A DNA stretch of 10,684 nt, from contig JABXKX010000347.1 in the NCBI GenBank assembly GCA_013619035.1, forward strand, positions 1 to 10,684. The letters run 5' to 3'. The DNA comes from Peptostreptococcaceae bacterium (GTDB taxonomy: Bacteria > Bacillota_A > Clostridia > Peptostreptococcales > Acidaminobacteraceae). The translations under genes and the position numbers were made by a program. This document shows, one piece after another, positions 1 to 10,684 of this stretch (positions within the stretch are counted from its first letter, which is position 1; the number at the start of each line of letters is the position of its first letter). The notes beneath the pieces are model-generated. The model was not told the DNA's origin. It saw only the letters and a program-made list of their open reading frames with translations, and searched no databases.

Positions 1-664
1 AATTTAATGTATAACCATAAAAACTCACTTTATTAAACAACCCATATATTAGTCCAAGTGGACATAACATCTGACAGAATATACGATAAATAAAAACTGA
101 TCCTATTATGATTGATATCAAAACAAACATTTTCCAAGAAAACAAAACACCTAATGCAGATCTTAATCCTGGATTTTTTAACAATAATGGTATGGCACCA
201 AATAATGTGCCACTAGGACAAATATACTTGCAAAACCCCGGATCACCCATACCAACTTTATTTGTAAAGACGGTAGGTATTAGTATAATAAAGTATATCA
301 GAATACCATATTTCATATATTTTAGTGGTTTAAACAATTTAAACTTTTTTGTTTTTATTTTATAAAGCAGATCTTGGATGAGACCAAAGGGACATAAGAA
401 GCCACATACGAATCGTCCAAGTAATGTGCCAAATGCCATTAATAGTCCTAAGATATAAAATGAGACTTGGTATTTCATACTGCCCATCACAGATTGAAGC
501 GACCCCAAAGGACAAGAACCTAGTGCCCCAGGACAAGAATAGCAATTCAAGCCAGGTACACAGATTATTTTAGAAGAGCCTTTGAATATCCTCCCCTCAA
601 TAAAGCCTTTGATATAAGCATTTGAACTGATAAAAAATAAGATTTGAATCCATATCCTCTTCAT
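1..664 (-). CDS. NapH-like polytopic 4Fe-4S membrane protein, C-terminus cut by the window edge
   Basis: An open frame of 221 codons runs from an ATG at 664 to the left edge without a stop. Visible Cys motifs are C35, CYSC at 41-44, C51-P52, GRxxCGxxCP at 83-92, CxxxCPxG at 145-152 and RxxCxxxCPLG at 194-204. These repeated CxxxCP elements near membrane segments (about 67-90, 119-133, 170-193, and a weaker one near 4-22) are typical of NapH/YccM/NosR-type membrane iron-sulfur proteins, which pass electrons between the membrane and a redox partner. In that family two ferredoxin-like CxxCxxCxxxCP clusters usually follow; here they would lie beyond the edge. An AGGAG ribosome site (676-672) lies 7 nt before the ATG. 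An in-frame ATG 18 nt upstream has no ribosome site and follows a TGA. The start overlaps the stop of the small CXXC gene by 1 nt, so translation is probably coupled. The electron donor and acceptor are inferred, not shown. Confidence 0.88.
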   Translation of the reverse strand, partial: MKRIWIQILFFISSNAYIKGFIEGRIFKGSSKIICVPGLNCYSCPGALGSCPLGSLQSVMGSMKYQVSFYILGLLMAFGTLLGRFVCGFLCPFGLIQDLLYKIKTKKFKLFKPLKYMKYGILIYFIILIPTVFTNKVGMGDPGFCKYICPSGTLFGAIPLLLKNPGLRSALGVLFSWKMFVLISIIIGSVFIYRIFCQMLCPLGLIYGLFNKVSFYGYTLN

Positions 665-798
665 TAGCCTACTCCTATACATTCAAGGCATATATTAATT
701 GCTTTTTTTAAAACCATTGTCATTTCATGACGGTGTATACCAATTCCCATCAGCACAGCGCTCATTATTAATAAGAAATATGACAGTTTATTTTTCAC
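664..798 (-). CDS. Small CXXC membrane peptide, CD1871A-like, 44 residues
   Basis: A GTG at 798-796 opens a 44-codon frame ending with TAA at 666-664. The product has a short basic start, a hydrophobic segment at about residues 5-21, and a conserved-looking tail from K31 to G44 containing CLEC at 37-40. Its length, the single N-terminal helix and the ending AINICLECIGVG fit, from memory, the small CD1871A-type CXXC proteins of Clostridia. The frame overlaps the thioredoxin gene by 11 nt and the iron-sulfur gene by 1 nt, so the three are surely co-transcribed and probably translationally coupled. A weak GGATGG ribosome-site match (812-807) sits 8 nt before the GTG. Starting at the internal ATG (M12) would delete most of the membrane helix and has no ribosome site. 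The function is unproven; a role in relaying electrons or thiols between its two neighbours is inferred. Confidence 0.8.
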   Translation of the reverse strand: MKNKLSYFLLIMSAVLMGIGIHRHEMTMVLKKAINICLECIGVG

Positions 799-1393
799 CT
801 AACATACCATCCAACATTTTTTCTAAGGCTTCTTTTGTAGTACCTCCTGGTACAAAATTTTCTAGAATTTTACCATTTTCATCAACAAACAATGTCACTG
901 GCACATAATCGAAAGATTTTATAATTTGTTCTTTTAGTTGTTCATCTGCTTTTATTTGAGGATAAGTAATACTCAATTGTTTTAATAAGTCTTTTACTTC
1001 ATCATCTTCAGAATCAATAATAAGTCCTAAAAATTGTACATCCTCCGTCTTATAAGTTTTTGATGCTTCTTCAAACTCTGGCATTTCTTCAACACACGGT
1101 CCACACCAAGTTGCCCATAAATTTAGAACCGTTACTTTATGTCCATTAAATATCGTTTCATCTATTGAATTGCCTTCAATATCGGTTGCTGAGATATCTT
1201 TTAATATTTGTCCCGCAACTGGATTTTTTTCATTGATGTTTTCAAATCCCGTTTCCTCAACAGAAGAATCATTTGTATTATCCTCAGCTACTTCAATCGT
1301 GGTTTCATCTTTTTTACTTGTCTCATCCGTTTTACTTTGGCATCCTACCAACATCATCGTTACAATTAAAATCACTATTCCAATTTTTTTCAT
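788..1393 (-). CDS. TlpA/ResA-like thioredoxin-fold lipoprotein
   Basis: This 201-residue exported protein begins with a lipoprotein signal: KK, a hydrophobic stretch and the lipobox LVGC with C18 as the lipidated Cys. An acidic, Ser/Thr-rich linker (about 19-58) follows, then a TlpA/AhpC-TSA-like thioredoxin domain (about 59-200). The active site is WCGPC at 96-100 in the usual TlpA context ending EEMPEF, and the cis-proline is V164-P165. Such proteins act outside the cytoplasmic membrane to reduce disulfides or sulfenic acids, as in cytochrome c maturation (ResA) or repair of oxidised proteins. An AGGAGG ribosome site (1403-1398) lies 4 nt before the ATG. It is the first gene of the redox operon, so its reductant is likely to come through the two genes behind it. 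The client is unknown; no cytochrome c genes are visible nearby. Confidence 0.93.
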   Translation of the reverse strand: MKKIGIVILIVTMMLVGCQSKTDETSKKDETTIEVAEDNTNDSSVEETGFENINEKNPVAGQILKDISATDIEGNSIDETIFNGHKVTVLNLWATWCGPCVEEMPEFEEASKTYKTEDVQFLGLIIDSEDDEVKDLLKQLSITYPQIKADEQLKEQIIKSFDYVPVTLFVDENGKILENFVPGGTTKEALEKMLDGMLGEK

Positions 1394-1444
1394 GTGACCT
1401 CCTAAATCTCATTTGATAACCTACTTCCAGTTTAACTCCCAAAA

Positions 1445-1545: not shown

Positions 1546-2238
1546 ATGAAATCAAAGATATTAATATTAGAAGATGATCTAGGTATCAACAATTTAATAA
1601 CAATGCAACTTCAAGCAGAAGGATATGATGTGATACAAGCTTTTGATGGACTAGAAGCAATTAACCTGTTTGATAAGAGTTTTGATTTGGCTATTTTAGA
1701 TGTCATGGTACCTATAAAAGATGGATTTGAAGTACTCGAGCATATAAGAAAAAGTAGCATTATCCCTATTATATTTTTAACTGCTCGCGATGAGGATATG
1801 GATAAAATGAGGGCTTTAGGGTTAGGTGCTGATGACTATGTCACAAAACCTTTTAGTATTATCGAAGTTATTTATAGATGTAAAGCTCACCTTAGACGGT
1901 ATCTAAACTACTCAAATCCAGTAGGTAAAGTAAGTGATACTATTAGTCATGGTGATATTAGTATGCAAAAATCTACATTTGAAGCCACACTTAATGGAGA
2001 ATGTCTAAATTTAAGTGTCAAAGAATTTGAACTCCTATGGTTTTTTACAGAACATGTTGGTCAGGTTTTTACAAGGCAACAATTATACGAACAAGTGTGG
2101 GATGCTGAATACTTTGGAGATGACAATACCATCATGGTTCATATCTCTAGGATAAGAGAAAAACTTGGTGAAAATCCTAAACATCCAAAATATATCAAGA
2201 CAATTAAAGGTTTGGGATACAGAATGGAGAAATTATGA
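1546..2238 (+). CDS. OmpR/PhoB-family response regulator
   Basis: The 230-residue protein has a receiver domain (about 1-118) followed by a winged-helix DNA-binding domain (about 133-228). Receiver landmarks are the acidic pair D10-D11, the phosphoacceptor D52 in AILDVMVP, T79 and K101-P102. The C-terminal half shows the OmpR pattern: LSVKEFELLW, a recognition-helix region ending in HISRIREKL, and the wing GLGYR. The length is typical for the family. The start has AAGGAG (1532-1537) 8 nt upstream. Its stop overlaps the kinase start in ATGA, so it is phosphorylated most likely by the downstream kinase and binds DNA as a dimer. The CTTAA repeats 63 bp upstream are the obvious candidate site. 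The sensed signal cannot be read from the sequence. Confidence 0.96.
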   Translation: MKSKILILEDDLGINNLITMQLQAEGYDVIQAFDGLEAINLFDKSFDLAILDVMVPIKDGFEVLEHIRKSSIIPIIFLTARDEDMDKMRALGLGADDYVTKPFSIIEVIYRCKAHLRRYLNYSNPVGKVSDTISHGDISMQKSTFEATLNGECLNLSVKEFELLWFFTEHVGQVFTRQQLYEQVWDAEYFGDDNTIMVHISRIREKLGENPKHPKYIKTIKGLGYRMEKL

Positions 2239-3578
2239 AATTAAAACATATTTCTAGACAACTTCTGAAAAACTATATATTCATAATGATCATTATCATC
2301 ACACTTGGTTTAACCACATTTTTTTTAGACTTGACCTATACAAACAGTAAAATAAATAATTCGATATTTGACATTGATCAATTCCTCTTTGATTATAATA
2401 GTGGATTTGATTATGCCCTATCCAAACAAAATTTAGAAAAAAAGGATTTCCTAATTGTATTTGACAACGATTATACTGTTGTAGATGTGTATAATTATGA
2501 CCTTAGAAAAAATGATCAACTCGATAGTTTAGAATTTGAAACGATATATAATAATGAAGATCAATACTCCTATTACATTTTTGAAAGTGATGATGCTGAG
2601 TATATCTTCTTGCTTTATTTAGCACCCGTTACCACCAATATGATATTTGTTATTCTGATTGTATCTGTCGCGATTATCACATTTATAATCTTCACAATTT
2701 TTCTCGCTAAGAAAACAGGGAAAAATATCATTCGTCCTTTAGAGTTGATCAGCCAAGGTGTAAAAGAGATCTCAAATGGTAACTATAATCATACCATTCA
2801 ATTTGAAACCTCAAATGAACTCGATGATATTAGAGACGATATCAATCATATGAGTTTACAACTCCAACATGAAATCGAGCGTCGTAAACAACTTGAGAAC
2901 GAAAGAAATCAGTTAATTTTAAGTTTATCACATGATATCAAAACACCTCTTACTAACGTGATTGGGTACTCTCAAATGTTGCTTAATCAGCCCATTGAGG
3001 ATAAAAATTTCAGACAATCATTGGAGATTATCAACAAATACGGATTAACTGCTGCAGCACTAACAGATGAATTATTTGATTTTACAAAACTCAATATGGA
3101 TTACCAACATATGCTTACTGAACGTCTAGATATTGTAGAGGTTATTCGATTAAAACTCATTGAATATGTAAATGAATTTGAAACACTTCATATCAATTAT
3201 CAATTTAATTTACCAAGTATGCCGATTTATACTCAACTCAATCGTATGAAATTCTATCGTGTACTCGATAATTTACTTCAAAACAGCATCAACTACAATC
3301 ATAAGTCATTTGATCTAACTGTAGGTGTAGAGTCAACAGATCGCGAAATAAAAATAACAGTAGAAGATACAGGCATAGGAATTCCAACAACCTATCACCA
3401 AACAATCTTCAATCCTATGGTTAGAGTAGAAAGCTCTAGAAATAGGAATTTAGGTGGTACTGGACTGGGTTTATCTATAGCCAAACAAATTATGATCAAC
3501 CATAATGGTGATATTACCATTGATTCTAATTACACCAACGGTTGTCGATTTGTTTTGATATTACCAATAAAAAACTAG
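2235..3578 (+). CDS. Membrane sensor histidine kinase, HAMP-HisKA-HATPase
   Basis: The 447-residue kinase has a first membrane helix at about 13-33, an extracytoplasmic sensor region of about 100 residues rich in Asp, Tyr and Asn (34-132), and a second helix at about 134-157. A HAMP linker follows (about 158-212), then the HisKA dimerisation domain with the H-box SLSHDIKTPLT (phospho-accepting H233). The ATPase domain has an N-box DNLLQNSINYN (345-355), G1 DTGIGIP (378-384) and G2 GGTGLGLSI (407-415). All catalytic boxes are intact. GGAG (2226-2229) lies 5 nt before the ATG, which overlaps the response regulator stop by 4 nt, so the two are made together. The sensor region matches no ligand-binding fold I recognise. 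The gene ends inside the stem of a minus-strand hairpin, and its own terminator follows at 3620-3654. Confidence 0.95.
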   Translation: MKLKHISRQLLKNYIFIMIIIITLGLTTFFLDLTYTNSKINNSIFDIDQFLFDYNSGFDYALSKQNLEKKDFLIVFDNDYTVVDVYNYDLRKNDQLDSLEFETIYNNEDQYSYYIFESDDAEYIFLLYLAPVTTNMIFVILIVSVAIITFIIFTIFLAKKTGKNIIRPLELISQGVKEISNGNYNHTIQFETSNELDDIRDDINHMSLQLQHEIERRKQLENERNQLILSLSHDIKTPLTNVIGYSQMLLNQPIEDKNFRQSLEIINKYGLTAAALTDELFDFTKLNMDYQHMLTERLDIVEVIRLKLIEYVNEFETLHINYQFNLPSMPIYTQLNRMKFYRVLDNLLQNSINYNHKSFDLTVGVESTDREIKITVEDTGIGIPTTYHQTIFNPMVRVESSRNRNLGGTGLGLSIAKQIMINHNGDITIDSNYTNGCRFVLILPIKN

Positions 3579-3947: not shown

Positions 3948-5258
3948 TTATTTCTCAAGTTTTACAGTATCGAGTATATAGTTAAATCCATTATATGTTT
4001 CGCTGAATTTAGTGTATTCCTGTGGTGACATTGCCCCAGCTTCATATAACTTTTGAATACGCTTTAAAGATTTTGCTTCTTTCTTAAAAAGATAGTTATA
4101 TATAAATGCTGTATAAACATCAGCTTTATTGGATTGTAGCAGTTTTTTTTGTTTTCTAAGTTGAGCAATACGATGATGTGCACCTTGTGAATGTGCATGA
4201 ATATAATGGCCAATCGCAAATAAAACAATCGCTTGAAGACCATATATAGCAATCATTTCAACTGTCCCTTGACCTTTTGAGACTAATGCAATCACAATAA
4301 CACCAAAAATGACAGCGCCAGATCTTAATAATAATTTTGCTTTATTGATAGACTGATTGATATAATGTTTTTCTTTTGCCATCGTAAGAATCGCTTCTTT
4401 GTAAACACCGTATAGGTGATCTTTTTTTCCTAAAATGCCATACTTTTTACCGGGATGTTCTTCAGTAATTACTGAAACAAACTCACTTACTGATGTAATA
4501 TTGTGATCTAACATAAAATTCAAAAGAGCGACTTCATCTTTTGATAACTCACCATCCATAGTCCCGTAAATAATACGTTCATTGACAATCGCAATCTGTT
4601 CTTTTTTAAACAACTTAAGTAATGTCACCATAATAAATCGACTGTTGATTCTCGACATATGTGTTTTATCTGCTTTGCTGCCAATCTTACCTCTATTGAT
4701 AATAAAGTAATCCGTGATTGGATCTGGAGATGATAACCCATTGGTACGATCAGTTAGAATAATCACGAAAGATAAAACAATCAATCCTACACTAATACCT
4801 ATAGAAGGTTTTAAAAAGGTATTGAGTATAACCGTCATATCAATGTTTAAAACATATTTGAACAGCATTAAAATACCAAATGTAATGAGAAGACCAATCA
4901 TAATATTGACTTTTAAAGAACGTTGTTCTTTCTCTTTAAAGACTCTCTTATTAAAAGCTTTTTCATGTTTTCTTTCTTTATTATCTCGTATTCGGCGTTC
5001 TTTTTTAGTCAGCGGTTTTTCAAGATGCTTCTTTATCTTAGTTGGTTTTTCTACAGGTTCGTTTACAATCTCTACTTTAGGTTCTTCGGATATTGTCTTA
5101 AGTTCTTCAAATATTTTTTTAGGTTCTTCAATAGTTGCTTCAGCCTCATCAATGATGGTATTTACTGTTTCAGAATCAGTTATTTGATTTTCAGTTGATT
5201 CTAGTTTCTCTTCGGTTACTTTTTCAATCGTTTCATTTACATTTATTTTTTCTGCCAT
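3948..5258 (-). CDS. Unrecognised membrane protein with a long charged N-terminal tail
   Basis: The 436-residue protein is not one I can name. Residues 1-115 are highly charged, first Glu/Thr-rich with loosely repeated EEPK-like units (44-70), then strongly basic (72-114). Two membrane helices follow (about 116-134 and 151-169), then a soluble stretch (170-305), another hydrophobic pair (about 313-327 and 332-352), a His-rich patch (H351, H354, H356, H361, H362) and a basic helical C-terminus (363-436). By the positive-inside rule the basic tails probably lie in the cytoplasm. The segment 205-250 loosely recalls the cytosolic region of DUF2207-type proteins (a hydrophobic run, then LSKDEVALLNFML), but this is weak. 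AAGGAG lies 8 nt before the ATG. It appears to be a single-gene transcript, bounded by the terminators at 5306-5337 and 3893-3932. Confidence 0.85.
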   Translation of the reverse strand: MAEKINVNETIEKVTEEKLESTENQITDSETVNTIIDEAEATIEEPKKIFEELKTISEEPKVEIVNEPVEKPTKIKKHLEKPLTKKERRIRDNKERKHEKAFNKRVFKEKEQRSLKVNIMIGLLITFGILMLFKYVLNIDMTVILNTFLKPSIGISVGLIVLSFVIILTDRTNGLSSPDPITDYFIINRGKIGSKADKTHMSRINSRFIMVTLLKLFKKEQIAIVNERIIYGTMDGELSKDEVALLNFMLDHNITSVSEFVSVITEEHPGKKYGILGKKDHLYGVYKEAILTMAKEKHYINQSINKAKLLLRSGAVIFGVIVIALVSKGQGTVEMIAIYGLQAIVLFAIGHYIHAHSQGAHHRIAQLRKQKKLLQSNKADVYTAFIYNYLFKKEAKSLKRIQKLYEAGAMSPQEYTKFSETYNGFNYILDTVKLEK

Positions 5259-7953: not shown

Positions 7954-9426
7954 CTAATTAACCTTTTCTACATAATCATCTGTTTCAACGGCACGGTCTA
8001 CCCAGAAATCAGCATTCTTGATACCTAATTTAATAGGGTCAAAAATTGGATCAAGGCCTGCTTTCTTTTGCTCTTCATAATCTTTAAGTGCAACCAGTGC
8101 TGGTTTTCTTAATAGAACAATCGCTACAATATTTAAGTACGCCATCAATGCAACACCAATATCACCGATACCCCAGATGACTTCTGCCTTTTGTACAGCA
8201 CCAAATAATACAGCACCCAAAAGTGCAACTCTTAATACATTGATTAACCATTTGTTGTCATTGTCTTTTGTTAAATATGCCACATTACATTCTGCAATAT
8301 AGTAATATGCCATAATTGTTGTAAATGCAAAGAACAGAAGTGAAATAGCAACAAATATTGAACCGAAACCAGGGAATACAGATTCAACTGCCATTTGTGT
8401 ATAAACTGGTCCAATTGAAACATCACCAATCTGATTTACTATGAATTCTCCACCCGGACCAATAACATTGTACATACCTGTGATAATAATCATAAATCCA
8501 GTTGCTGAACATACAAATAATGTATCGATATATACTGAAAATGCTTGAACCAAACCTTGTTTTACTGGATGTGTTACTTCTGCAGCTGCAGCAGCATGTG
8601 GTCCAGTACCTTGACCAGCTTCATTTGAGTAAATACCTCTTTTCACACCCCAAAGTACTGCATAACCAAGCAAACCACCGAATACTGGTTGAACTCCGAT
8701 AGCACTTGTGATAATTAATTTAAATACACTTGGTAACTCAGTAACATTCATACCAATAATAACTAATGATACTAGAATATATGCAATTGCCATAAACGGA
8801 ACAACAATTTCTGCTACTTTACCAATTCTTTTAACACCACCGAAAATAATTAATGCTAAAAATCCAACGATACCAATACCAGTAATAAGAGGAGAAATAC
8901 TAAATGCTTCTTCCATACCTAATGCAATACTGTTTGATTGAACACCTGGCATAAATAGACCCATAGCAAGCATTGTAATCACTGCAAATAAAACAGCATA
9001 CCATTTTTGTCCTAAACCTTTTTCAATATAATACGCGGGTCCACCACGGTACTCTCCATTTTGTTTTTCCTTATAAATTTGTGCCAATGCTGATTCAACG
9101 TACGCTGATCCTGCACCTACAAATGCAATAACCCACATCCAAAACAATGCACCTGGACCACCTAATGCGATGGCTGTAGCAACGCCTGCGATGTTACCAG
9201 TACCAACACGACCTGAAATAGAAATTGCAAATGCCTGGAATGAAGACACACCACTTTCTGATGATTCACCTTTAAATAACAATCTTACCATTTCTTTAAT
9301 GTGTCGCACTTGTAAGAATCTTGTGACAATTGTGAAGAATAAACCACTCAATAAGCACATACCTATCAACCAGTTGTTCCAAACCAATCCATTAATAAAA
9401 CTAACGACTTTTTCTAATGTTTCCAT
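7954..9426 (-). CDS. AGCS-family sodium:alanine/glycine symporter
   Basis: The 490-residue polytopic protein couples inward Na+ flow to uptake of small neutral amino acids, typically alanine or glycine, across the cytoplasmic membrane. The family signature is clear: SGRVGTGNIAGVATA (71-85), then GGPGALFWMW (89-98), and EAGQGTGPHAAAAA (269-282). About ten to eleven hydrophobic segments are spread through the chain, and the length is usual for the family (AlsT, DagA and relatives). A G-rich Shine-Dalgarno (AAAGGGGGA) precedes the ATG by 4 nt. It is transcribed alone: the upstream regulator has its own terminator at 9535-9564, and a sigma-54-type promoter lies at 9465-9481. So expression probably depends on the adjacent NtrC-like regulator. 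Exact substrate preference is inferred from the family. Confidence 0.96.
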   Translation of the reverse strand: METLEKVVSFINGLVWNNWLIGMCLLSGLFFTIVTRFLQVRHIKEMVRLLFKGESSESGVSSFQAFAISISGRVGTGNIAGVATAIALGGPGALFWMWVIAFVGAGSAYVESALAQIYKEKQNGEYRGGPAYYIEKGLGQKWYAVLFAVITMLAMGLFMPGVQSNSIALGMEEAFSISPLITGIGIVGFLALIIFGGVKRIGKVAEIVVPFMAIAYILVSLVIIGMNVTELPSVFKLIITSAIGVQPVFGGLLGYAVLWGVKRGIYSNEAGQGTGPHAAAAAEVTHPVKQGLVQAFSVYIDTLFVCSATGFMIIITGMYNVIGPGGEFIVNQIGDVSIGPVYTQMAVESVFPGFGSIFVAISLLFFAFTTIMAYYYIAECNVAYLTKDNDNKWLINVLRVALLGAVLFGAVQKAEVIWGIGDIGVALMAYLNIVAIVLLRKPALVALKDYEEQKKAGLDPIFDPIKLGIKNADFWVDRAVETDDYVEKVN

Positions 9427-9464
9427 TTTGTCCCCCTTTATCTAGCAATACCATCTATACATAT

Positions 9465-9574: not shown

Positions 9575-10684
9575 TTATTTCTCAATTTTATATTTTTCTA
9601 CTTTATTAAACAGTTGTCTTCTCGATATCCCAAGTTGTTCAGCTGATTTTGTCATATTATATTTATTTTCTTCAAGTGTTTTGATAATAAATACTTTCTC
9701 TGCCTGATCACGATAACTTCTTAATGTTTCTCCTTCTGTAGGTTCGCCACTAAAATGTTCTGGTAAATCCTCTGCAAGTATTTCACCATTTTCAGATAAT
9801 ACAATCAACCTTTCAATAATGTTTCTCAGTTCACGTATATTACCTGGATAGTCATATTGAAGGAGTCTCGATATCACCAACTCTTCAATATGTACAATAT
9901 CTTTCTTCATTTCATTCTTAACTTTATCAAAGAAATATTGTATCAAAGCTGGCAAATCTTCTTTTCTTTCTCTCAGCGGTGGAATTGTCACTGCAATGGT
10001 ACTGACTCTATAAAACAGATCTTCTCTAAATTCTGATTGTTCAATCAAAGTATTCAAATCTCTATTTGTCGCACAAATTAATCTGAAATCAATTTCTCGT
10101 AACTGATTACTTCCAATTCGTTCAATGGCTTTCGATTCTAGTGATCTTAAGAGTTTCGCTTGAATATTTAAGGTTGTATCTCCAATTTCATCTAAAAAGA
10201 GAGTCCCATAATCAGCAGCTTCAAATCTTCCGATTCTCATTTCATTAGCACCTGTAAAGGCACCTTTTTCATGTCCAAACAACTCTGATTCTAAAAGGCT
10301 TTCAGAGAATGCATGACAGTTTACAGGTACAAATGCTTCTTGATTTCTTGGGCTTAACTGATGAATGTATTGAGCTAGAATTTCTTTACCAACACCCGAT
10401 TCACCTAATAATAAAATGCTAACATCTGTTTTTGAAGCTTTTTCAATCGTATCCAATACTTTTCTAAATCCAGGATTTTTAGTTTCAAACACAAAATCTG
10501 AAGCCTTCTGAGCGCTTCTTTTAATATAACGTCGAAGTTTTGCTACTTTTTTTATTTCAATAATCAGCTCATCAGGATCATGACTTTTAATAAAATAACT
10601 AAAAGCCCCTTTCTTCATTGCATCTACAGCATTTTGAACAGATCCATATCCTGTAAAAATAATAACTTCAGTATCTGAAAAGTC
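9575..10684 (-). CDS. NtrC-type sigma-54-dependent response regulator, N-terminus cut by the window edge
   Basis: The open frame runs to the right edge; 369 residues are visible. The first 22 codons beyond the internal Met at 10618 read VIIFTGYGSVQNAVDAMKKG, the last part of a receiver domain, so this is a response regulator and not a stand-alone AAA+ activator. The phosphoacceptor Asp lies off the window. The Lys that is normally followed by Pro is followed here by Ser (IKSHDP). The AAA+ domain has Walker A GESGVGKE (about 94-101), the sigma-54 contact loop GAFTGA (141-146), Walker B LFLDEIG (162-168) and an arginine-finger region REDLFYRV. A Fis-type helix-turn-helix ends the chain (about 343-365). 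It hydrolyses ATP to open sigma-54 promoters; the best target in sight is the symporter promoter at 9465-9481. Its sensor kinase would lie to the right. Confidence 0.95.
   Translation of the reverse strand, partial: DFSDTEVIIFTGYGSVQNAVDAMKKGAFSYFIKSHDPDELIIEIKKVAKLRRYIKRSAQKASDFVFETKNPGFRKVLDTIEKASKTDVSILLLGESGVGKEILAQYIHQLSPRNQEAFVPVNCHAFSESLLESELFGHEKGAFTGANEMRIGRFEAADYGTLFLDEIGDTTLNIQAKLLRSLESKAIERIGSNQLREIDFRLICATNRDLNTLIEQSEFREDLFYRVSTIAVTIPPLRERKEDLPALIQYFFDKVKNEMKKDIVHIEELVISRLLQYDYPGNIRELRNIIERLIVLSENGEILAEDLPEHFSGEPTEGETLRSYRDQAEKVFIIKTLEENKYNMTKSAEQLGISRRQLFNKVEKYKIEK

Follow-up and report, generated by a model that had tools for sequence, protein, structure and literature searches.

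A candidate transmembrane thiol-reducing relay of an iron-sulfur protein, a 44-residue CxxC peptide and an exported thioredoxin in Clostridia

Results

Three overlapping genes at the edge of the window

We examined a 10,684-nucleotide (nt) stretch of a Peptostreptococcaceae genome (contig JABXKX010000347.1, assembly GCA_013619035.1; hereafter the window), at one edge of which the minus strand carries three overlapping genes, here called the trio: tlpA, encoding an exported thioredoxin; a 44-codon gene, encoding a peptide with a C-terminal CxxC motif; and the start of a gene encoding a polytopic iron-sulfur (Fe-S) protein (Table 1). An earlier sequence-only reading of the window described overlaps of 11 and 1 nt, which the coordinates of the open reading frames (ORFs) confirmed: tlpA and the peptide gene share positions 788-798, and the peptide and Fe-S genes share position 664. 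The Fe-S ORF starts at ATG 664 (ATG 682 in the mechanical ORF list) and runs off position 1. The overlaps indicate that translation is probably coupled rather than that the stoichiometry is fixed.

Profile scans identified the thioredoxin as a member of the TlpA/ResA-like group, with matches to PF08534 Redoxin (63.5 bits) and PF00578 AhpC-TSA (60.1 bits) and a WCGPC active site; its closest solved chain was ResA 4nmu (E = 4.5e-17). It was rejected as ResA proper, scoring 79.1 bits against the curated cut-off of 170 for NF002854. The peptide belongs to NF040920, the "CD1871A family CXXC motif-containing protein" (62.3 bits, curated cut-off 32), a named family without an assigned function. It has a positively charged N-terminus and one likely transmembrane helix, and ends in CLECIGVG. 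Sequence and profile matches thus agree with the earlier description of an exported WCGPC thioredoxin and a one-helix peptide with a C-terminal CLEC.

The Fe-S protein matched PF12801 Fer4_5 (64.3 bits for the part in the window, gathering cut-off 22). Its gene lacks the last ~51 codons in the window, and the C-terminal 2[4Fe-4S]-type ferredoxin domain falls beyond the window edge. The full-length copy (P0001, 272 residues, 65.6 bits) in G001, the nearest genome compared (sharing 27% of the window's sampled 31-letter words), carries two CxxCxxCxxxC motifs at its end. Full-length P0001 fell below the curated cut-offs for NapH (75.6 versus 213.05 for TIGR02163; 62.9 versus 234 for NF007013) and was therefore rejected as a true NapH; the label NapH-like given in the sequence-only reading holds for PF12801 family membership and not for NapH proper.

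All three trio genes are under purifying selection. Nonsynonymous (dN) and synonymous (dS) divergence between the window and G001, uncorrected for the overlaps, was 0.0195 and 0.717 for the peptide (the lowest dN/dS of the trio), 0.044 and 0.552 for the Fe-S part, and 0.077 and 0.669 for TlpA. With dN far below dS, the small ORF evolves as a genuine coding gene would; this and its conservation across copies ruled out a chance ORF.

The peptide and the Fe-S protein occur together

The distribution of the trio was analyzed in a sample of 299 genomes from the phylum of G001, with a threshold of E <= 1e-20 for the Fe-S protein. A short-word homologue search with the peptide returned 2 proteins only, a limit of the method at 44 residues, and profile scans were therefore used instead. 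The peptide was found in 40 genomes (28 above the family cut-off) and the Fe-S protein in 45, namely all 40 peptide genomes plus five, three of which (G037, G079 and G115) have a peptide adjoining the Fe-S gene. All three genomes examined in the genus of G001 have the peptide.

Pairing was also examined from the side of the Fe-S protein, by fetching stretches of up to 6 kb on each side of the gene for the best 80 of 582 relatives. This revealed the peptide in 79 of 80 loci and TlpA in 68 of 80; since these loci represent the best of 582 relatives, the 79/80 pairing holds for close relatives, among which it is near-obligate. Together, the loci chosen by peptide (40), those chosen by Fe-S protein (80) and the window gave 121 loci, 99 of which had a same-strand TlpA no more than 2.5 kb away. 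The gene order was TlpA-peptide-FeS in 76, peptide-FeS-TlpA in 21, and FeS-peptide-TlpA and TlpA-FeS in 1 each. The constant core is thus the peptide and the Fe-S protein, with TlpA as a frequent third part, and the recurrence of the three families together, which the sequence-only reading had set as a check, was borne out. The system is found in many Clostridia and, judging by record titles, also in some Treponema and other spirochaetes, Synergistaceae, Selenomonadales and Collinsella.

Conservation of the peptide was assessed in 120 copies (40 from phylum-sample genomes, the window and 79 from loci fetched via the Fe-S protein). CxxC[IVM]G occurred in 119 of the 120 copies, and exactly two residues followed it in 115 of the 119; the profiles used to find the copies include the CxxC and so favor it. 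The CXXC that had been singled out from the window sequence is therefore conserved in the family, and the remaining copy reads TGA-x-x-C. The N-terminal flank carried a net charge of +2.16 and the C-terminal part +0.15 (120 copies), a bias from which the CxxC is expected to lie on the outer side of the membrane.

Conserved cysteines and topology of the Fe-S protein

Cysteine conservation, numbered according to P0001, was analyzed in aligned sets of 41, 91 and 87 Fe-S proteins. C41, C44, C87, C91, C149, C197 and C201 were invariant in both the 91 and the 87 sequences. C51 was invariant in the 91 and present in at least 90% of the 87; C145 was nearly invariant in the 91, both C35 and C145 were invariant in the 87, and in the set of 41 they were present in 27 and 36 sequences, respectively. 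Lysine and arginine were then counted in the 87 sequences, with loop boundaries set by hand from AlphaFold2 (AF2) helices. The loop with C41/C44/C51 contained 4.03 of 43 residues and that with C145/C149 2.47 of 40, compared with 6.43 of 33 for the loop with C87/C91 and 11.0 of 77 for the C-terminus. Such a distribution would be expected with the C41/C44/C51 and C145/C149 loops outside and the C87/C91 loop and C-terminus inside. Combined with the cysteine conservation, the loop charges suggest that Fe-S sites lie at either face of the membrane and that the ferredoxin domain is inside.

Three membrane helices were clear by hydropathy, and the AF2 model of the relative P0004 had a mean predicted local distance difference test (pLDDT) score of 91.7. 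The ferredoxin domain is of the clostridial type. Solved relatives identified by sequence match only this C-terminal part, and Foldseek returned no match for the Fe-S protein at E <= 0.001. VIA-align applied to the Foldseek list recovered chiefly ferredoxin domains (residues about 212-272), a comparison that barely probes the membrane part and does not imply a new fold.

Two side observations concern Fe-S homologues. P0043, P0051 and P0065 bear a cysteine-rich C-terminal tail (such as CTGSCASCSKTC), possibly involved in metal binding. Second Fe-S copies in G016 (L077) and G135 (L078) have NCSSC in place of NCYSC/NCYAC, and no peptide was found nearby.

Fusions of the Fe-S protein to thioredoxin

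In two loci (L207 and L208) the Fe-S protein runs on into a thioredoxin domain. The gene directly upstream encodes a longer protein with multiple hydrophobic stretches and no Pfam hit, which has the CxxC peptide (CTECIGLG) as its C-terminus (Table 1). A search with the L207 fusion revealed PF12801 and Redoxin together in 119 of the best 120 of 5435 proteins, where the query and length limits favor fusions, so that the count shows them to be abundant but gives no measure of the fraction of Fe-S proteins that are fused; the protein without this combination, P0219, is annotated as partial. The catalytic cysteine pair of the thioredoxin domain was invariant in 85 aligned fusions. In the predicted structure of the fused protein the ferredoxin domain is followed by a helix (390-416) and then a confidently predicted thioredoxin domain, which would place thioredoxin opposite the ferredoxin side if the helix spans the membrane.

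In-frame TGA codons at active-site cysteines

TlpA genes from the phylum set and the window were compared (33 genes; 34 profile hits, two of which are halves of one gene). In 12 of the 33, the ORF starts right after an in-frame TGA that replaces the first active-site cysteine, and all 12 active-site interruptions were TGA. SelB scored above cut-off in 11 of the 12 genomes with a TGA-containing tlpA versus 14 of 28 others. Two further TGA-containing TlpA genes were present among the 80 fetched Fe-S loci (L126 and L148), with SelB in both genomes. After the TGA, the five stretches that were folded (L035, L042, L046, L049 and L061) share GTGCTGCAGTTGCAGCC, and three of them (L042, L049 and L061) were predicted to fold with a hairpin that this sequence can form. 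Because GTGCTGCAGTTGCAGCC also encodes the conserved LQLQP, the hairpin is weak evidence of a selenocysteine insertion sequence (SECIS). A 2026 selenoproteome review already lists TlpA-like proteins with selenocysteine (Sec); its main text contains no occurrence of NF040920 or CD1871A (PMC13188914).

The 120th peptide copy, from Clostridium tepidiprofundi (L141:5810-5953), reads KAVRV-TGA-LECIGIG-stop, with the TGA exactly at the position of the first cysteine. Read with Sec at the TGA it scored 62.8 bits, SelB was above cut-off in the genome, and downstream of the TGA the sequence can form a short hairpin whose loop has four bases. This copy is a possible selenopeptide. No second TGA-containing peptide was found among the matches in 299, 146, 291 and 41 genomes, and no other genome was available in the genus of C. 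tepidiprofundi.

Comparison with CcdA and DsbD

Exported thioredoxins can be supplied with electrons by CcdA-type proteins, and the sequence-only reading had noted that neither CcdA nor DsbD was visible in the window. A scan with PF02683 (DsbD_TM) gave no hit in 11 window proteins (ten ORFs of at least 90 residues and the peptide), the ORFs of that length outside the scan being those at 4714-5187, 4923-5198 and 9170-9445, antisense to scanned genes. The argument from absence fails for the lineage of the window, since G001 has CcdA-type proteins elsewhere: three DsbD_TM matches, one of them in L222 and another apart in L221. In this lineage the trio looks like a system parallel to CcdA. At L222:2750-5273, the neighbors of CcdA are two genes named by eye, one thioredoxin-like (WASWCSIC) and one MsrAB-like.

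Across the phylum sample DsbD_TM was present in 209 of 299 genomes, in 15 of 40 with the peptide versus 194 of 259 without (Fisher P = 8.7e-6); including the three extra peptide genomes, the counts were 18 of 43 versus 191 of 256 (P = 4.6e-5). In a class sample of 291 genomes, the peptide was found in 44 (42 above cut-off) and DsbD_TM in 151, comprising 15 of 44 with the peptide versus 136 of 247 without (P = 0.0135). Overlaps were counted by hand, and because the samples share at least two genomes (G027/G477 and G198/G509, recognized by their equal coordinates) and kinship was uncorrected, this deficit is only a tendency: CcdA/DsbD proteins tend to be under-represented, not absent, in peptide genomes. 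PF02683 was missing from 25 of 43 and 29 of 44 peptide genomes, and the prospect that CcdA/DsbD always accompanies the peptide, which would have told against the relay, did not materialize.

Neighboring genes

Neighbor clustering was performed with 121 loci, in 110 of which the Fe-S gene was located, and revealed no recurrent client gene. One cluster resembling sensor kinases was present in 25 of the 110 loci and another resembling ABC (ATP-binding cassette) ATPases in 17, with the representative of each judged by eye and no control. In the window, a two-component system (1546-3578) is divergent from the trio.

Table 1. Coordinates of trio genes, motifs and other features, in the window unless a locus is named
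Feature	Position	Strand	Basis
TlpA/ResA-like exported thioredoxin lipoprotein, 201 aa	788..1393	-	Redoxin, AhpC-TSA; lipobox-like MLVGC by eye
WCGPC active site of thioredoxin	1094..1108	-	sequence
AGGAGG, likely ribosome binding site of tlpA	1398..1403	-	sequence
CD1871A-family peptide, 44 aa, GTG start, one likely transmembrane helix, C-terminal ICLECIGVG	664..798	-	NF040920
CLEC, putative redox-active thiol pair of the peptide	679..690	-	CxxC[IVM]G conservation
NapH-like polytopic Fe-S protein, 221 of about 272 residues, cut at window edge	1..664	-	PF12801
OmpR-type response regulator, divergently oriented to tlpA; might have a regulatory role	1546..2238	+	PF00072, PF00486
Sensor histidine kinase (HAMP, HisKA, HATPase)	2235..3578	+	profile scan
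Sigma-54 activator (AAA+, Fis-type helix-turn-helix), cut at window edge	9575-10684		
Longer protein ending in CTEC peptide	L207:4634-5530, L208:4226-5053	-	

Discussion

We consider it probable that the trio is a transmembrane thiol-reducing relay serving an exported thioredoxin. The gene arrangement, the pairing and TlpA linkage, the fusions, the cysteine conservation, the TGA at catalytic positions and the charge bias of the loops are computed findings; the topology, cluster content, electron donor, direction, contacts, order of steps and clients are inferred. Reduced cytosolic ferredoxin (or another low-potential donor) would pass electrons to the C-terminal 2[4Fe-4S] domain of the Fe-S protein on the inside, from which they would move to an inner Fe-S site formed by the invariant cysteine pairs C87/C91 and C197/C201, and then to an outer site formed by C41, C44, C51 and C149, with C145 and often C35. 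The outer site would reduce the disulfide of the C-terminal CxxC of the peptide at the outer membrane surface, and the peptide would in turn reduce the CxxC (or UxxC) of TlpA, which would act on oxidized clients outside. In this scheme the peptide would convert one-electron Fe-S transfer into two-electron thiol chemistry, like the cluster-adjacent disulfide of ferredoxin:thioredoxin reductase (FTR). The fusions, the TGA at the catalytic site, the near-obligate pairing, the cysteine sets on two faces and the ferredoxin domain on the inside together make an Fe-S-driven thiol reductase the simplest reading.

Several observations weigh against this reading, and the strongest doubt concerns the acceptor. 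About a fifth of loci (22 of 121) lacked a same-strand TlpA within 2.5 kb, and inspection by eye of their surroundings revealed no shared substitute partner, so another acceptor is possible; in two of the 22 (L080 and L081) a TlpA lies a little beyond 2.5 kb. The 22 loci also run counter to the fixed stoichiometric unit that the sequence-only reading had seen in the overlaps. Pairing of the core has exceptions as well: the remote Fe-S homologues in G125 and G197 and the second copies in G016 and G135 are without peptide, and L123 (5700-6040) has TlpA and no recognized peptide, the stretch upstream of its Fe-S gene having had only a brief look in three frames. The N-terminal segment of the Fe-S protein fell below the hydropathy mark passed by the other three helices, and the model of the fused protein (mean pLDDT 62.5, with a poor Fe-S part) is too poor to show docking. 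DsbD_TM coexists with the peptide in 18 of 43 and 15 of 44 genomes. With respect to Sec, one of the 12 genomes with a TGA-containing tlpA (G169, 90% complete) shows no SelB, and the post-TGA folds of the five TlpA genes mostly fail to beat shuffles, L042 alone coming near (z = -1.98; 7 of 200 shuffles fold as well). The 52-nt fold at the C. tepidiprofundi TGA was no better than shuffles (z = 0.23); given this and the single case, a nonsense mutation stands as a possible alternative for that peptide.

The doubt over the acceptor leads to an alternative in which the Fe-S protein and peptide form an electron-transfer core whose acceptor is not TlpA, for example a surface oxidoreductase or a metal, and TlpA keeps the outer cysteines reduced during cluster building. 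Consistent with this, the peptide/Fe-S pairing (79/80) is tighter than the linkage to TlpA (99/121), 20 peptide-FeS loci have no TlpA within 2.5 kb, and acceptors or donors of several kinds have been reported for NapH-like proteins (PMC8238504). Yet the Fe-S/thioredoxin fusions with their invariant catalytic cysteine pair, and the TGA at the catalytic cysteine in 12 of 33 thioredoxins, both point to TlpA as the redox partner, and we regard this alternative as unlikely. Less likely again is a purely structural role, with the CxxC as a ligand of the outer Fe-S cluster and the peptide as a small subunit of the Fe-S protein. Near-obligate pairing would fit such a subunit, as would the variation of the outer cysteine set (C35 in 27/41, C145 in 36/41, C51 not invariant in the 87), but that set already contains four cysteines invariant in 91 sequences, and the first peptide cysteine is replaced by TGA in one species, where a Sec reading suits redox catalysis.

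The direction of flow can also be questioned, since Fe-S proteins can work either way and the relay might drain electrons from exported thiols into the cell, forming disulfides. This we consider highly improbable: the clostridial-type ferredoxin domain, the likely Sec-containing thioredoxins and the ResA/TlpA-like folds suit reduction instead, and bacteria with the trio are mostly anaerobic fermenters.

Returning to the thiol-reducing relay, we also lean, with more reserve, towards a broader claim: that it is a widespread and undescribed surface-reducing chain, running from ferredoxin through membrane Fe-S clusters and a 44-residue (seleno)peptide, which would act as a portable FTR-like site, to an exported and often Sec-containing thioredoxin. 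The sequence-only reading knew of no experimental description of such a relay, and none was found in the open-licence literature; nor did any paper there contain the name CD1871A, most subscription papers lying outside the search. To our knowledge, how exported thioredoxins are reduced in bacteria without CcdA or DsbD is an open question. If the relay is real, it would provide a non-homologous answer in many Clostridia and some other bacteria, and would mean that anaerobes can drive extracytoplasmic thiol chemistry from ferredoxin, not from NADPH/thioredoxin, and without CcdA or DsbD. It would also give a function to NF040920, add a possible selenopeptide, and tie ferredoxin metabolism to cell-surface redox repair. 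The system is small, and its three small genes make it directly testable.

Among known systems, the trio resembles the CcdA-eTrx-MsrAB systems, described for pneumococcus (Etrx1/2) and Fusobacterium (eTrx-CcdA-MsrAB2-ModRS), in that a surface thioredoxin is encoded with a polytopic membrane electron donor (PMC3914529, PMC12288474). The likeness extends to regulation genes, as the two-component system ModRS adjoins the Fusobacterium cluster and a two-component system also lies alongside the trio (PMC12288474). The donors differ: CcdA passes thiol equivalents from cytosolic thioredoxin via its own cysteine pair, whereas the trio combines a CxxC peptide with an Fe-S protein that is unrelated to CcdA and carries a ferredoxin domain. 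Both types occur in G001, at separate places. The trio also resembles NapH-like systems (NapH, PceC and relatives with FMN (flavin mononucleotide)-binding domains), in which the PF12801 protein is thought to carry transmembrane electrons (PMC8238504). Partners reported there are FMN-binding or oxidoreductase proteins, whereas in the trio they are a CxxC peptide and a thioredoxin, the latter sometimes fused to the Fe-S protein; FMN_bind gave no hit in the 11 scanned window proteins or in full-length P0001, genes beyond the window edge being outside the scan.

The chemistry proposed for the trio is analogous to that of FTR, in which ferredoxin electrons reach thioredoxin by way of a 4Fe-4S cluster and an adjacent disulfide. 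FTR is a soluble enzyme, and no match to its family was found among the trio proteins or in P0001 at the thresholds used. By descent, the Fe-S protein is a member of the wider group of NapH-like Fe-S proteins, while the trio would resemble CcdA-eTrx in its function and FTR in its proposed chemistry.

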